A stretch of 25,537 nt of DNA from a virus, in the IMG/VR virus record IMGVR_UViG_3300042691_032732, positions 1 to 25,537 of that record, one strand, 5' to 3'. Below the pieces are notes generated by a model. It was given only the letters and a program-made list of their open reading frames with translations, was not told the origin of the DNA and ran no database searches. Every line of letters starts with the position of its first letter. Position 1 is the first letter of the stretch. A program made the position numbers and the translations under genes. Below are positions 322 through 5,740 of this stretch, piece by piece.

Positions 322-1062
322 TTAAAAAGCCTCAGTAGAGGAGACTTCCGACTCATACTCGGAATCGACCCGCCGGTCGCCCGAGTGAATAGCATCATAC
401 ATTCTCTTGGCCGCGGCCGCAATATCTGCCGTCACCCAAGGCCCGATCGTGGCCTTGATGTTGTAGAAGGTGCCTTTGTCGTTCTTCTCCTTCGTCGACT
501 CGAGATAGAACACAGAGGCGAACCGTGCGGCACCGCGCAAGCGAATCATCGAATTGATCTGTCGATCGACCTTGAGCTTCGTGCTGGTCATCGGGATGAC
601 GATTTCGCTGATCACCTTGTTATCGGCATTCAGAATCAGACCGAAATTCATCGCCGTCTCGACGATCTCCATTTGGTCGATCGGATCGTCACCCGTCTGG
701 ATCGCGATCTTGGCTTCAGCCTCGCTGCCGAACGAACCGCGGAAACCGCCACCGGCCGAACGCTTCTTAAAAACGGTGAATTCCTTCTTGCGATCGACGA
801 ACACCACCGACACCGGCGATGCGTAGACTTCGCGAGTGAGCGAATTGAAAAAATCACCGGGCTTCGCGTCCTCGATGTACTTGGGGTCAGAATCGTCGAC
901 TTCGGGCGAGAGACTCTGGATGAGTCCGAGACGCGGAATGACGATATCTTCGACGCCGACCGACTCGTTGCCGACCGCGCCGTACTGCTGCAGGAAATCC
1001 GGAACCTGTCCGGTCAACGCGAGTTCGCCCTGCTCTCGAACTGCGACTTCTTTCTTCGCCAT
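322..1062 (-). CDS. Phage replication-module protein, possible ssDNA-binding/accessory protein
   Basis: A 246-aa acidic protein without signal peptide or membrane segment. It starts MAKKEVAVREQGEL, has a flexible Ala/Gly N-terminus, a central block around residues 38-55 (EDIVIPRLGLIQSLSPEV) and a mixed alpha/beta core. It ends in a Glu/Ser-rich acidic tail (DSEYESEVSSTEAF), a feature shared with many single-stranded DNA-binding proteins, where such tails recruit partners. Proteins with this IPRL..LQ..SPEV block occur beside primases and helicases in many phages, usually unnamed. The SD AAGGAG sits 9 nt before the ATG, and a strong terminator follows the gene, consistent with high expression. 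The role is inferred from neighbours and the acidic tail; no OB-fold motif can be proven by eye. Confidence 0.75.
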   Translation of the reverse strand: MAKKEVAVREQGELALTGQVPDFLQQYGAVGNESVGVEDIVIPRLGLIQSLSPEVDDSDPKYIEDAKPGDFFNSLTREVYASPVSVVFVDRKKEFTVFKKRSAGGGFRGSFGSEAEAKIAIQTGDDPIDQMEIVETAMNFGLILNADNKVISEIVIPMTSTKLKVDRQINSMIRLRGAARFASVFYLESTKEKNDKGTFYNIKATIGPWVTADIAAAAKRMYDAIHSGDRRVDSEYESEVSSTEAF

Positions 1063-1158: not shown

Positions 1159-1578
1159 CTAATAAAATCGCGCTGTCGGAATGATCGTCACATTGACGTG
1201 ATCCGACGGGTACTCTTTGCCTTCCTTCATCGCCCGACTCACGAATGCCTTCAAGGTAGAAGGCGCGACGGTCGGCTTGATGAGGTCAGCCTCACCATGA
1301 TCAATGAGCCACTGATACAGCTGCTCGCGTTGCTCCTCACGTGAGGACACAAAGAATTCATCCTGAATGCGAATACCGCGACCGATGCTGCTGAAACGAG
1401 CGGACGTGATGTCCTTGTCTTCCATCAGCTTCGGAATGATCGTCCGACGCAGGAAATCGTAACGATTCTGCTTGTCGGTCTTCTTTTCCGAGAGTTCCTC
1501 GATCTCTTTATTCAGCTGATCGAACAGTTCGACTGCCTGATCCAGCTCCAGATTCTCATACTCAGGATAAATTTCCAT
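1159..1578 (-). CDS. Hypothetical phage protein with N-terminal coiled coil
   Basis: 139 aa, not recognised with confidence. Residues about 10-50 (ELDQAVELFDQLNKEIEELS and on) form a charged coiled coil. The C-terminal half (residues about 88-139) is a compact domain rich in Lys and Tyr, ending VNVTIIPTARFY. An N-terminal coiled coil before a small beta domain recalls Gp157-type phage proteins, but the similarity is only architectural. It lies 3 nt after the 99-aa gene and shares its transcript with the replication genes, with a GGAG SD before the ATG at 1578. A role in phage DNA metabolism is plausible from context only. Confidence 0.75.
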   Translation of the reverse strand: MEIYPEYENLELDQAVELFDQLNKEIEELSEKKTDKQNRYDFLRRTIIPKLMEDKDITSARFSSIGRGIRIQDEFFVSSREEQREQLYQWLIDHGEADLIKPTVAPSTLKAFVSRAMKEGKEYPSDHVNVTIIPTARFY

Positions 1579-1581
1579 AGG

Positions 1582-1881
1582 CTATACTCCACGAATGGTT
1601 ACGGGAACGTACTTGCTCGATACGTTGTCCCATTTCAGCACGGTAAATGCACCACGCTTCGATAAAATCGCCATAGCCACCCCTATGTTGATCGGGTCGC
1701 CGACGACGAGCAAATAATCAGAGGGTCCGAATGTCTCGAGCTTCGATTTCATGAAATCGATGTGCTTCTGAGGATTCTCGAACTTTGGGTAGTTGACCAA
1801 AGCCACGAATTCGATATCGCCGTAGTCGGTCGCCGGAACGAAATTATGCTCGGTGCGCTGGACTACGTAAACCTTAGCCAC
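1582..1881 (-). CDS. Small conserved-looking hypothetical phage protein (GTG start)
   Basis: 99 aa, no recognised domain and no TM segment. The sequence alternates short beta-strands (VYVVQRT, EFVALVNY, YLLVVGDP, FTVLKW) with one helix (PQKHIDFMKSKLETFG), suggesting a small alpha/beta fold. The start is GTG at 1881, fixed by an excellent GGAGG SD (1886-1890) four bases upstream. A sigma70-type promoter lies immediately upstream (1907-1935), so this gene and the following ones can be transcribed independently of the SNF2 gene. It may be an early-expressed accessory protein, but its function is unknown. Confidence 0.75.
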   Translation of the reverse strand: MAKVYVVQRTEHNFVPATDYGDIEFVALVNYPKFENPQKHIDFMKSKLETFGPSDYLLVVGDPINIGVAMAILSKRGAFTVLKWDNVSSKYVPVTIRGV

Positions 1882-1906: not shown

Positions 1907-1935
1907 ATTATAGCACTGCGCCGATCAGGACGCAA
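1907..1935 (-). promoter_or_regulatory. Sigma70-type promoter with extended -10
   Basis: Minus strand: -35 TTGCGT (1930-1935), 17-nt spacer, perfect -10 TATAAT (1907-1912) preceded by TGC (extended -10). Transcription would start near 1900, about 20 nt before the GTG of the 99-aa gene. The -35 overlaps the last codons of the SNF2 gene. A second promoter with the same TTGCG...TATAATTGA layout occurs at 23319-23347. Confidence 0.75.
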
Positions 1936-3589
1936 TCTTCTTGATCTCTTCCATCAGCCAATCGGCGTAGTTGCGATTGTTCTTGAGCGCTTCGAGCACT
2001 CGAGAGTCGACCCACTCACCATCAATTAGAATGTCGATATAGAGTACAGACTGACTCGTCTGTCCGATGCGATGTGCACGATCTTCGCTTTGAATGCGAT
2101 CGTCAAGCATAAACGTGTTGCTCATATAGACAACCGTTGAAGCCGACACGAGTGTGATGCCGATGCCACCGGCACTCTGCGTACCGACGAAGAATCGCAC
2201 ATCGGGATCGAGCATGAAACGCTGACGCGCCGCGGTGTTCTCTTCCGTCGTGTTGAGGCCGAAAAACGTGACGGTCGGTGCGATCCTTGAAAGAGCGTCG
2301 GCGACAAGCTGCACTTCCTTCTGGAATCTGCACCACACAATCACTTTGCCGTCGATCTCGTCGACGACTTGAAGGAGCTCCTCGACCTTCGGATTCTTGC
2401 CGCTGAACGGCTCGAGCTGCACCGCGTTGTCGACAATCGCGCCGTCAACGAGCTTCGCACCGGGAAAGAAGCCCGACGAGATCTGTTGAAGGCGAAGATC
2501 ACGCACAAGAACGTTAGTGAACGATGCCGCGGATCCGTCGAACTCGGTGTAGCCGTCCTTCTTCAGCTCCTTGTACGCGATCTTCTGCTGCTGACTCGGC
2601 TCGACTTTGCGCACCTGATACACCTTCGGCGGCAAATCGAGACACTCGGCCTTCGATGCGCGGAACGTGTACGGCCCGATGAGCTGCAACAGCTCTTCTT
2701 CGTTCTGAGTGCCGACGATCTGTTTCTGCTTGTAGCCGCCCATCACGCAATAGCGATTGCGGAAGGCGTAGTAGCTCGAGCCTCCAATGATGTCGACATC
2801 CATGAAGTTGTACTGCGAGTACAAGTCCTGCGGTCCCTTGGTTATCGCAGTGCCGGTCGCGATTCTCCTGCGCTTGAAGTTACGCCCTATCTTCGTGATC
2901 GCCTTCGTACGATTCGCGTCATGCGATTTAATGCGACTCGATTCGTCGACATAGACGACAGCACGACTAATAAGGCCGAACTTCTCTGCATACTTGTACG
3001 CGTCGCCTTGCGAGAACGACTCCACCGACATGATCGCCCATTTGAGCCCATCGACGAAAGGCTCAGTCATCCAATTCGTGTACTTCTCTTTGAGCGACGG
3101 ATCATACACGAAAATGTCGGTCGCGATCGACGAGTGCTTCTCGATCTCTTCCTTCCAGTTCGATTTGATCGAATTCGGGCAAATCACGAGCGCCGCGTTG
3201 CACTGACCCTCAAGAAAGTAGCACGTCGCATCATCAATCATCACCTTCGACTTGCCGGTTCCAGGATCCATGAGCAACGCGTAGTTGTCCTGCGCGATGC
3301 AACGTTGCAAGGCTTCAAGTTGGTGATCAAGCGGCTTGGTCTTGAACGCGAACGTAAACGGCAACTTGCCGCGTCTAACCTCGGCTCGATCCTCGAGGAA
3401 CTTCGCTGCCGCATCAGTAAACGTAGCCCGGAATCTGCGAAAAAAATCGATATTCGACTTCGTAGGAGGACACACCCACGCCTTCGACATTTTGTCGAAT
3501 CTACGACTCGGAATCGATCGCAACACACCGAGCATCGCGGGTGGCGCATCGACGATGAACGCTTTACCGTTGAAATCGACGAGCAGCAT
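1925..3589 (-). CDS. SNF2-family DNA-dependent ATPase/helicase with HARP-like N-terminus
   Basis: 554 aa, a superfamily 2 ATPase with all core motifs visible. Walker A is DPGTGKSK (residues 108-115) and motif II is DESS (215-218), the form often seen in phage SNF2 proteins instead of DEAH. Motif III is RRRIATGTA (240-248), motif V GTQSAGGIGITL (469-480) and motif VI QSEDRAHRIGQ (500-510), the last being the SNF2 hallmark. The first 50 residues (FDKMSKAWVCPP.., NIDFFRRF) resemble the HARP domain of SMARCAL1-type annealing helicases. Such enzymes translocate on or remodel branched DNA, so a role at phage forks or in recombination is likely. The ATG at 3589 overlaps the primase stop (TAATG) with an upstream AGGAG, implying coupled translation. 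Confidence 0.9.
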   Translation of the reverse strand: MLLVDFNGKAFIVDAPPAMLGVLRSIPSRRFDKMSKAWVCPPTKSNIDFFRRFRATFTDAAAKFLEDRAEVRRGKLPFTFAFKTKPLDHQLEALQRCIAQDNYALLMDPGTGKSKVMIDDATCYFLEGQCNAALVICPNSIKSNWKEEIEKHSSIATDIFVYDPSLKEKYTNWMTEPFVDGLKWAIMSVESFSQGDAYKYAEKFGLISRAVVYVDESSRIKSHDANRTKAITKIGRNFKRRRIATGTAITKGPQDLYSQYNFMDVDIIGGSSYYAFRNRYCVMGGYKQKQIVGTQNEEELLQLIGPYTFRASKAECLDLPPKVYQVRKVEPSQQQKIAYKELKKDGYTEFDGSAASFTNVLVRDLRLQQISSGFFPGAKLVDGAIVDNAVQLEPFSGKNPKVEELLQVVDEIDGKVIVWCRFQKEVQLVADALSRIAPTVTFFGLNTTEENTAARQRFMLDPDVRFFVGTQSAGGIGITLVSASTVVYMSNTFMLDDRIQSEDRAHRIGQTSQSVLYIDILIDGEWVDSRVLEALKNNRNYADWLMEEIKKIAS

Positions 3590-5124
3590 TAGAACTTCTC
3601 CTCGATAGTGATGGGCTTAAATTCGGTGTGTGCTAGATTCGCGGGCTTCTGCCAAAGTCTGATCACCTTCTTGCCGACACGCGACTTCGAATAGCCACAT
3701 CCGAGTCCGCGCAAAATCACCCAGAGGTCAGCACCCTTCGCCTCTTCCGAGCGCTTCCTCTTCAAGAAAGCGATAAAGTCGGTCGACCTGAACACCACCG
3801 TCGGTTGCTTCTCGTCATTCTCGACCAGCACCGGAATACCACGTAGGACATCCTCGATGTTGCCATACTTTGGCTGGCCGGTGTTCTCGTCCATGCGCTC
3901 ACAGACTCGCGTGAACTCCTCGAGCATGCCGCCCACGACCGCCTTCGGCCCGACGTCCTCTGGCGCATCGATGCACTCCATCGTGTCCATCTTCTGCTTC
4001 AACGTCGCTTGCCAGTCGACCTTCTTCATGTCCGGAATCACGAGGTCGGCATATGCGAAACACGCCAGCTGGAACGAGATGAAGTTAAACAGCACCGCGT
4101 GGTCGAGCACCATCTCGCGACCGTTCACCTCGACCAGATACTTCGGCGGGTCGGTCATGATCTTCTTGAGTCCACCGAATATGAAATCGTGGAACATCGT
4201 CTTGTTGCCCTGCCCGATCCCGTACTTGCGGGTCTTGCAAAGCTCCTTGTCGCAGAGCGAACAGATCGGCTCCTCGTTGCACCGGTAGCCGTAGTCGCCT
4301 TTGCCGACCGACGACACGATAGTCGTGATCTCGCGCCGCGGTAACGGCTTGTAGACGATCGACTTGTCGTAGTTGATCTGCATCAACGGCTCTTCAATAT
4401 TGTTCGGGTCGATCTTCTTCAGGTAGACGGCAATATTGAATAGCGCGTTGTTGCGAGACCCGGACGTCACCCCGCCCTTGGTCAAAATGTGCTGGATACA
4501 CGGCGGCGCATCTTGATGGTCAGCTCCGAACGTGAGACTCATCAGTCGGGATTTGTCGCAGAGCGATGCTTCGGCCCGGTCGAGGAACTCGTCGAGCGAC
4601 ATCTGCTGGCCAGATGACCACGCGAACCGCACCGTCTCCTCGGCGTTAAAATACGGGAGGTTGATCCAGTTGCCGACTTGCCCCTTTCCGAGCTTCTTCT
4701 GCTTCGGGAAGACCTCGACGCCGGGGTACCCTATATTAGCCGCCCATTGCTTAAGGACGCCCTGCACGAGGGCCGCGGGAAGCCTCTCAGACAGGAACAA
4801 ATATAGATGCGCACCCTGCGACTTGCTCTGGCAGACAATCAGCGGGTAGCCGAACTCCTCGATCTTGAGCACCAGAGGCTGCAGCGGGATATACTCCCCG
4901 TCCTCGTGAGCGTCGATGTCAATGGCACCCCACTGCACCATGCTGTCGTCGTCGATCGGCACAATACCAATACCGACATCCCCGTCTAGGTGGTCTCGGA
5001 AATTCGCCACCGTCGGAGCTTCCTTGACCGTCTCCATGTAGCCGGTCTTCTTCCAGACCCCGCGTACACGATCCAGACCCTTATACAGAGCAGCAAAACG
5101 CTCGACCTGAGCATCTGTAACCAT
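3589..5124 (-). CDS. Archaeo-eukaryotic-type (AEP, TOTE-like) DNA primase
   Basis: 511 aa. Residues about 20-190 form an AEP catalytic domain. The metal-binding DxD is D69/D71 in GAIDIDAH, the nucleotide-binding SxxGxH motif is SKSQGAHLYLF (100-110), and EVFPKQ followed by GNWINLPYF (about 137-159) matches the third region of TOTE/phage AEP primases. Then comes a helical PriCT-like segment (GVTSGSRNNALFNIAVYL, about 218-235) and a Cys cluster C282-x5-C288-x2-C291-x4-C296 that probably binds zinc (or FeS). The C-terminal 110 residues look like a DNA-binding winged helix. It would synthesise primers for phage replication. The frame is open to 5262, but the start at 5124 is preferred: SD AGGTG lies 4 nt upstream and a strong promoter lies within the extra 46 codons. 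Confidence 0.88.
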   Translation of the reverse strand: MVTDAQVERFAALYKGLDRVRGVWKKTGYMETVKEAPTVANFRDHLDGDVGIGIVPIDDDSMVQWGAIDIDAHEDGEYIPLQPLVLKIEEFGYPLIVCQSKSQGAHLYLFLSERLPAALVQGVLKQWAANIGYPGVEVFPKQKKLGKGQVGNWINLPYFNAEETVRFAWSSGQQMSLDEFLDRAEASLCDKSRLMSLTFGADHQDAPPCIQHILTKGGVTSGSRNNALFNIAVYLKKIDPNNIEEPLMQINYDKSIVYKPLPRREITTIVSSVGKGDYGYRCNEEPICSLCDKELCKTRKYGIGQGNKTMFHDFIFGGLKKIMTDPPKYLVEVNGREMVLDHAVLFNFISFQLACFAYADLVIPDMKKVDWQATLKQKMDTMECIDAPEDVGPKAVVGGMLEEFTRVCERMDENTGQPKYGNIEDVLRGIPVLVENDEKQPTVVFRSTDFIAFLKRKRSEEAKGADLWVILRGLGCGYSKSRVGKKVIRLWQKPANLAHTEFKPITIEEKF

Positions 5125-5152
5125 TCGACACCTCGCTATAGACGATGGGGTA

Positions 5153-5181
5153 AGGATACCACGGGGCCATCGGGAGGTCAA
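5153..5181 (-). promoter_or_regulatory. Sigma70-type promoter of the primase/replication operon
   Basis: Minus strand: -35 TTGACC (5176-5181, 5 of 6 to consensus), exactly 17 nt spacer, -10 TATCCT (5153-5158) preceded by TGG (extended -10). The predicted start near 5146 leaves a short leader of about 22 nt to the ATG at 5124. The first TGTAGC repeat of the neighbouring array lies about 11 bp upstream of the -35, a position suited to an activator or repressor. Confidence 0.75.
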
Positions 5182-5191
5182 TTGTGGCATT

Positions 5192-5487
5192 TGTAGCGGT
5201 TTTGTAGCATATATACCCGCTACACACGAACTATGTCTTCGATACGGACGAGAACGGCACAAAAAAAGAGATAATACTGTAGTGTAGCATTGTAGCGGGG
5301 GGAGTATACGTATCTTGCATACCCCTAAATATTAATATTCGTGTTTACCCCTATAGTATACCCCCTTTTTTATGCTACGATGCCACACGGCCCATCTTCA
5401 AATATTCCCGGATCGGTCGGGGCCGTATCAAGAACACATATCCGCGTGTAGCATATATACCGCTACACGGCCGCTACAACCGCTACA
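5192..5487. repeat. Nine-copy TGTAGC/GCTACA hexamer array with two palindromic sites
   Basis: Exact TGTAGC copies on the plus strand start at 5192, 5203, 5283, 5291 and 5447; inverted copies (GCTACA) start at 5219, 5462, 5473 and 5482. About 0.15 copies would be expected by chance in 296 bp. Two pairs form palindromes with a shared ATATATACC centre: 5203-5224 (N10 spacer) and 5447-5467 (N9). Outer copies are spaced 11 and 9-11 bp apart, close to one helical turn, and the left and right clusters are roughly mirror images. These are probably binding sites for an origin-binding or regulatory protein. Confidence 0.8.
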
Positions 5488-5538
5488 TTGTTTCAGGGAG
5501 GAAACGGCGATTATTCTTTTTCTGCCGTCCCAATCATC

Positions 5539-5567
5539 TTAACACACCGCGAGGGCTGTGATAAGAT
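5539..5567 (+). promoter_or_regulatory. Candidate plus-strand sigma70-type promoter
   Basis: TTAACA (5539-5544), 17-nt spacer, TAAGAT (5562-5567) preceded by TGA (extended -10). Transcription would begin near 5574, essentially at the ATG of the small plus-strand open frame at 5573, so any message would be leaderless or the product an RNA. It is a weaker match than the minus-strand promoters and rests on sequence only. Confidence 0.35.
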
Positions 5568-5572
5568 TTCCC

Positions 5573-5737
5573 ATGGGGTGGAAATCGTACCGCCGACACC
5601 CCCGGCAAGTCCGGTTCTGGTGTCGGCAATGCCAAGTCGAACATTTCGGTTGCTGTGACCCGATCCGTAAGAAGCGAGTCGAAGCCATCGGGAAGGCTCT
5701 CCTCGCCGCTCGGAAGAAGGACCAGCTACCGATATAG
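5573..5737 (+). CDS. Possible small Cys-rich protein, only plus-strand gene candidate
   Basis: A 54-codon open frame in the otherwise unused space between the virion operon end and the control region, convergent with the gene ending at 5741. The product is basic and contains a potential metal site, C17-x2-C20-x3-H24-x2-C27-C28 (WCRQCQVEHFGCC), followed by a Lys/Arg-rich helix (KKRVEAIGKALLAARKK). A promoter-like sequence lies just upstream, but no SD fits the ATG; a GTG at 5558 is in frame but sits only 2 nt after GAGGG. A strong hairpin (5592-5627) lies inside it. It may be a real zinc-finger-like regulator or a chance frame over a structured transcript end. Confidence 0.35.
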   Translation: MGWKSYRRHPRQVRFWCRQCQVEHFGCCDPIRKKRVEAIGKALLAARKKDQLPI

Positions 5738-5740
5738 CAT

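Follow-up and report, generated by a model that had tools for sequence, protein, structure and literature searches.

Paired short-repeat arrays beside an AEP primase operon as candidate replication-origin-type sites in phages that probably carry 2-aminoadenine DNA

What is the role of a dense, mirror-arranged cluster of a six-base repeat that occupies the gap between the replication and the virion genes of a phage? The question is raised by a linear 25,537-bp IMG/VR virus fragment, the whole of which is referred to here as the window. Its genes all lie on the minus strand, except for one small divergent ORF, and a gap of approximately 600 bp (5125–5740), which houses the cluster (array 1), is bordered by virion genes on one side and by a replication operon on the other, the latter encoding an AEP primase, an SF2 helicase, and Pam3 gp32-, gp33- and gp34-like proteins. 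An initial annotation had correctly placed the array between these two gene sets and against the promoter of the primase gene, whose -35 box lies at the array edge, and had read it as a replication origin or a master switch. The features discussed below are collected in Table 1.

Table 1. Coordinates of array 1, its elements, the neighbouring replication genes and the candidate binder p45 (positions in the window unless stated otherwise)
Feature	Position	Strand	Remarks
AEP primase (AEP-TOTE + PriCT-1)	3589–5124	-	C-terminal winged-helix-like domain, approximately residues 423–494
SF2 (SNF2-type) helicase, replication operon	1925–3589	-	
Pam3 gp32-like protein	1582–1881	-	conserved in operon of array-bearing phages
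Pam3 gp33-like protein (DUF7307)	1159–1578	-	
Pam3 gp34-like protein	322–1062	-	
Primase promoter TTGACC-17-TATCCT, sigma70-type	5153–5181	-	-35 box abuts array; spacing kept in relatives
Array 1, origin-type element, mirror-arranged	5182–5490	.	nine exact TGTAGC; conserved in L002–L005
Palindrome TGTAGC-ATATATACCC-GCTACA (N10), left cluster	5203–5224	.	also in G004 array 1
Palindrome TGTAGC-ATATATACC-GCTACA (N9), right cluster	5447–5467	.	conserved in relatives
AT palindrome AATATTAATATT	5328–5339	.	near dyad centre
Left arm of 15-bp inverted repeat, GTGTAGCATTGTAGC, then GGGGGG	5282–5296	+	nearly invariant, arrays 1 and 2
Right arm of 15-bp inverted repeat, GCTACGATGCCACAC	5374–5388	+	13/15 complementary to left arm
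Conserved block AAAAAAGGGGGTATACTATAGGGGT	5347–5371	-	common to arrays 1 and 2
Block AAAAAAAGAGATAATACTGTAGTGT, related to and facing AAAAAAGGGGGTATACTATAGGGGT	5261–5285	+	
p45	G004 31937–32350 (L025:11937–12350)	-	invariant motif LN[IV]GMQRMNL
p45	SH-Ab 15497 35832–36521		invariant motif LN[IV]GMQRMNL

Array 1 stands out by the density of its repeats. The nine exact copies of TGTAGC or its complement GCTACA reported initially were recovered on recounting; they start at 5192, 5203, 5219(-), 5283, 5291, 5447, 5462(-), 5473(-) and 5482(-), span 296 bp (5192–5487) where approximately 0.1 would be expected, and are matched neither elsewhere in the window nor in shuffles of it. TGTAGC is the densest hexamer in the window (9 per 300 bp), the maximum in 40 whole-window shuffles under a first-order Markov model being 6 per 300 bp, and when the array region itself was shuffled, nine copies were reached in 1 of 2000 trials. 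Across the window there are 22 copies against 7.8 expected, a total that none of 100 shuffles attained. TGTGGC at 5183 makes a degenerate tenth copy of the array, and the outlying GCTACA at 1116–1121, to which the initial annotation had drawn attention, is an isolated copy that is indistinguishable from background.

The internal order of the array is for the most part as first described, including the 12-bp AT palindrome, three TACCCC repeats (5320, 5346 and 5359), a G-run/C-run repeat (GGGGGG/CCCCC) and a T-tract. The two clusters had been called mirror-related; both contain a palindrome, and it is the flanking copies, at 9- and 11-bp spacings, that mirror each other, while the palindromes themselves read in the same direction. 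The spacing of the outer clusters is mirrored about the AT palindrome, a candidate unwinding element, with the palindrome halves 15–16 bp apart. A 15-bp imperfect inverted repeat shares its centre with the outer clusters (5335), the AT palindrome being 1.5 bp off; the complementarity around 5335 is the best locally, with comparable dyads elsewhere in the window, such that the centre is not unique. The single-strand fold of the array core was no better than that of shuffled sequences (z = 0.57), and an Rfam search gave no match. Taken together, the array displays features of iteron origins, i.e. short direct and inverted repeats, an adjoining AT-rich region and replication genes alongside.

On the far side of the array is the divergent ORF (5573–5737, plus strand), which encodes 54 aa, is rich in cysteine and had no match in a family search. 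Compared with the relative L005, it has eight synonymous and three non-synonymous codon changes and is therefore probably a real gene; its conserved promoter, TTAACA-17-TAAGAT, ends 5 nt before the ATG, and thus the gene is possibly leaderless.

Alignment with related contigs, which the initial annotation had named as a means of refuting the origin, found the array at the syntenic site. Four IMG/VR contigs (L002–L005), whose primase is 91 % identical, carry it at the same position, where TGTAGC occurs 12 times. Identity to the relatives is 79 % of aligned bases in the array vs 84 % in the primase gene, and despite this lower conservation, the relatives retain the TGTAGC sites, the GGGGTA blocks and the AT palindrome. 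A 54,719-bp relative, G004, is nearly complete, and since the window contig bridges its two ends, its contig can be regarded as a genome that is circularly permuted and almost whole. The 50-bp stretch of highest AT content in G004 falls inside its array 1. A 23-bp stretch, ACGGGCGGGAACGGCATCAGAAA, is directly repeated inside array 1 of G004 and L005; the matching segment of the window (5225–5270) looks inverted, which suggests small inversions in the array.

G004 also contains a second array, comprising twelve more TGTAGC copies across 34159–34618, just upstream of the terminase genes. Array 2 is a homologous inverted copy of array 1, located 19 kb away (35 % of the genome); when reverse-aligned to array 1 of the window and of G004, it is 74–77 % identical over 180 bp, and the blocks that are invariant between arrays 1 and 2 include CCCCCCGCTACAATG and TACTATAGGGGTA. 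In a BLAST comparison of the window with G004, the array is matched twice, with 5190–5370 aligning additionally to 34298–34481 (E=5e-24). A motif-free scan of G004 found 17 hexamer copies in two clusters, a result equalled in 0 of 100 shuffles; the corresponding heptamer test was weak (5/60) because the repeat unit of this genome is a hexamer. Another contig, L113, has a divergent homologue of array 2 and may derive from a close relative. The window's own array 2 falls outside the fragment, and the pairing is read from these relatives.

Pairing extends to distantly related isolates. Phages of Klebsiella, Salmonella, Pseudomonas, Providencia and Acinetobacter, with primases approximately 36–38 % identical to that of the window, show a similarly sized gap at the syntenic site, filled with repeats of another hexamer. 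The altered repeats (TGGAACG, TGGAACC and GNAACCGA) all fit G-N-A-R-C-S-G, instances of which are GTAGCGG (window), GGAACGG, GGAACCG, GCAACCG and GTAACGG. Two arrays of the genome's own motif are found in K21lambda1, PMBT28, PSA28, Kokobel2, Bhz9, SH-Ab 15497 and others, and in these six the top paired cluster of a motif-free scan consists of the site upstream of the primase and another close to the late region, separated, according to their coordinates, by 45–51 % of the genome. K21, PMBT28, PSA28 and SH-Ab have 13–14 heptamer copies (0/60 shuffles). The cluster counts of Bhz9 and Kokobel2, being reached in 29 and 8 of 100 shuffles, are not significant alone, and the case for these two phages therefore depends on synteny and alleles; for JeffCo, the motif-free scan makes a weak case. 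No comparable pair was seen in phiVC8 and BUCT555, which have PurZ and no match to the window primase, nor was a comparable upstream array found at 73 more distant AEP-primase loci, where the primase genes lie inside operons with gaps of ≤200 bp. Other elements noted 5' of the arrays in the isolated phages (L007–L011 and L014) are a conserved TGTCGCC-N4-GACAATATT that immediately precedes the direct iterons, long inverted repeats on either side of the array, e.g. CTTTTCGCCCGCGAGAGG in Kokobel2, and, close to where the tail genes end, a GCTAC-N4-ATAGC element.

Within the Acinetobacter group (without JeffCo), the primases are 95–100 % identical, yet one base of the site varies by lineage, and both arrays of any one genome bear the same allele. 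In SH-Ab, 9 of the 10 genome copies of GCAACCGA are within the arrays, in both orientations; pB23 has G[AT]AACCGA in both arrays and Bhz20 mainly GTAACCGA. Site variants across the array phages include GCAACCGA, GAAACCGA and TGTAGC; the sites are repeated directly at an 8-bp period and also occur as inverted copies. A shared allele is what would be expected if one factor reads both arrays, although gene conversion between them could also produce it, and, judging from these sequences, one phage-specific factor very probably binds both. That each genome has a second array, and that the hexamer co-varies between the two, had escaped the initial annotation.

The relatives also indicate what kind of phages these are. 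In G004, further genes of the operon encode a UvrD-type helicase, a family A polymerase, PurZ, and dATP/dGTP pyrophosphohydrolase-like proteins, and PurZ is present in a further relative, G002. The closest matches of the G004 polymerase (PolA) are in the SH-Ab 15497/phiVC8 group, and it lies nearest the DpoZ clade; that group contains the DpoZ of 2-aminoadenine phages (PMC8599892). Since the closest relatives encode PurZ, DpoZ and dATP-removing enzymes, the array phages are probably 2-aminoadenine (Z) phages. The window ends before the PurZ, polymerase and pyrophosphohydrolase genes, and its own phage probably has Z-DNA by extension from those relatives.

Strand composition says little about where replication begins. 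GC skew is monotone, with no switch at the arrays; because the genes are co-directional, it is uninformative. Of the evidence anticipated for an origin, the syntenic conservation and, in the G004 copy, the AT peak were found, and GC skew lends no support. GC3 skew is equal in the replication and late arcs. At fourfold sites, the replication arc has a lower TA skew than the late arc in the genomes of all eight relatives, significantly so in four, three of which are Acinetobacter phages; the difference may reflect replication direction or gene class, with which it is confounded.

Two proteins are candidates for the array binder. The structure model of the window primase (pLDDT 86) has an AEP domain that matches CRISPR-associated Prim-Pol and RSF1010 RepB' (the latter among the Foldseek matches, E=5e-5), and by virtue of a modelled C-terminal helix-helix-wing segment (residues 423–494), the primase could contact the array. 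The other candidate, p45 (phrog_8941), combines a zinc ribbon with a helical C-terminal domain; every array genome encodes it, and its sequence diverges from one iteron class to another. Its gene has a perfect promoter upstream in several genomes and, in G004, is preceded by three TGTAGC sites at 20–140 bp. The p45 model is of low confidence (pLDDT 68) and had no PDB match. The label 'integrase' attached to p45 in Bhz9 was set aside, relatives of p45 having no integrase match. Choosing a binder by residues that change with iteron class was likewise abandoned, as the numbers of fixed differences (7 in the primase, 14 in the SF2 helicase and 13 in p45) gave no clear winner.

Among known systems, the closest in layout is the Bacillus phage SPP1, whose gp38 binds both oriL and oriR, two distant origins made of repeats plus an AT-rich region, and whose oriR has been proposed to stall forks, triggering the switch to concatemers (PMC6316719, PMC3485210). 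As in SPP1 (PMC6316719), the relatives of the window have two distant, similar sites with the same direct repeats and AT-rich DNA, of which one belongs to the replication module and the other to the late region. In contrast, SPP1 uses gp38, gp39, a DnaB-type helicase (gp40) and host DnaG, whereas the operon of the array phages has an AEP primase plus SF2/UvrD-type helicases, and array 1, instead of lying within an initiator gene, is located upstream of that for the primase; no gp38-type initiator, gp39 loader or gp40 DnaB-type helicase was seen among the scanned operon proteins or the relatives' annotations. The IncQ plasmid RSF1010, with its oriV and RepC, RepA and RepB', likewise combines an iteron origin with its own AEP primase (mechanism, PMC4234260), and here too an AEP primase is encoded with an origin-type array; the array phages differ in having two arrays rather than one, 6–8-bp repeats and no recognized RepC-like or RepA-like gene, and where RSF1010 has ssiA/ssiB hairpins that its primase recognizes, array 1 has a 15-bp inverted repeat, in a core that folds no better than shuffles. 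The pRN1 ORF904 replicon shares a primase with a C-terminal winged helix and an origin close to the primase operon, but its proposed origin is a stem-loop without iterons.

On this analysis, the arrays are somewhat more probably than otherwise paired replication-origin-type nucleoprotein sites, similar to SPP1 oriL/oriR, beside an AEP primase. We infer that a single phage-encoded protein would bind the 6–8-bp sites (TGTAGC in the window) both at array 1, which precedes the AEP-primase operon, and at array 2, close to where the late region begins. Once bound to array 1, this protein would wrap or bend the mirrored clusters and open the AT-rich centre, where the primase and the operon helicases would begin replication; array 2 would act as a second (late) origin or as a fork barrier, aiding the switch to concatemer synthesis. 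Conservation, pairing, shared alleles, the winged-helix-like C-terminus of the primase, the SPP1 precedent and the lack of a comparable pair in phiVC8 and BUCT555 speak for this reading; against it speak the missing skew switch, the failure of site-class changes to single out an initiator, the more distant AEP-primase loci that have no comparable upstream array, the nearness of both arrays to promoters, the weak results for Bhz9, Kokobel2 and JeffCo, and the unremarkable fold of the core. The main rival, rather unlikely but to be taken seriously because both arrays lie near promoters, is that they are multi-site operators through which one phage transcription factor switches the replication and late operons on or off, replication starting elsewhere. 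Array 1 adjoins the -35 box of the primase promoter, in K21, PMBT28, Kokobel2, JeffCo and Bhz9 a consensus promoter lies downstream of array 2 at a distance of approximately 30–250 bp, and p45, given its ubiquity, strong promoter, divergence and upstream sites in G004, would suit such a factor; with both arrays 50–250 bp from promoters, the master-switch reading of the initial annotation keeps some probability. Nevertheless, array 2 changes its orientation relative to transcription between lineages, many consensus promoters, several of them perfect, have no array or sites, and a length of 300–450 bp, with an AT-rich dyad inside, is more than one would expect of an operator; the first two of these observations are why an origin is favoured over a promoter-bound operator. 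One site could possibly serve both roles.

That the arrays are packaging, segregation or genome-organizing sites (pac-like or parS-like) is improbable: array 2 is near the gene for the terminase small subunit in G004, JeffCo, SH-Ab and Bhz9, but array 1 is far from terminase, array 2 of Kokobel2 and K21 is 1.5–4 kb from it, and no ParA/ParB-like gene was seen. Still less probable are immunity operators or stoperators of a temperate-phage repressor. Genome-specific variants of a short binding site do recall cluster A mycobacteriophages, but their stoperators are 13-bp asymmetric sites scattered singly and in one orientation, up to approximately 30 per genome (PMC6550527), vs two dense arrays here with copies in both orientations, as SH-Ab illustrates; moreover, no repressor was recognized, and the Bhz9 'integrase' is p45. 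Clustering by chance or low complexity, which the Bhz9 and Kokobel2 counts alone would allow, has a negligible likelihood and is already contradicted by the comparative data, i.e. the same two places in every lineage, the shuffles (0/100 for G004 and 0/60 for four others) and the conserved blocks common to arrays 1 and 2.

A search of the open-access literature found no description of these arrays and nothing specific on the replication origins of 2-aminoadenine phages, whose replication start appears not to have been described previously. Tentatively, and with more doubt than attaches to an origin as such, the arrays may represent a new class of paired phage origin in Z-substituted genomes, in which an unrecognized initiator with fast-evolving site specificity would recognize one short iteron in both of the far-apart arrays, cooperate with an AEP primase and SF2/UvrD helicases in the absence of a DnaB-type helicase, and open an A:T-rich centre made of three-bond Z:T pairs. 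The arrays offer precise, testable coordinates in the cultivated phages SH-Ab 15497, K21lambda1, PMBT28 and Kokobel2, as well as a set of naturally occurring site variants with which the initiator could be sought, and they invite one to ask how an origin is melted if a third hydrogen bond holds its A:T pairs.
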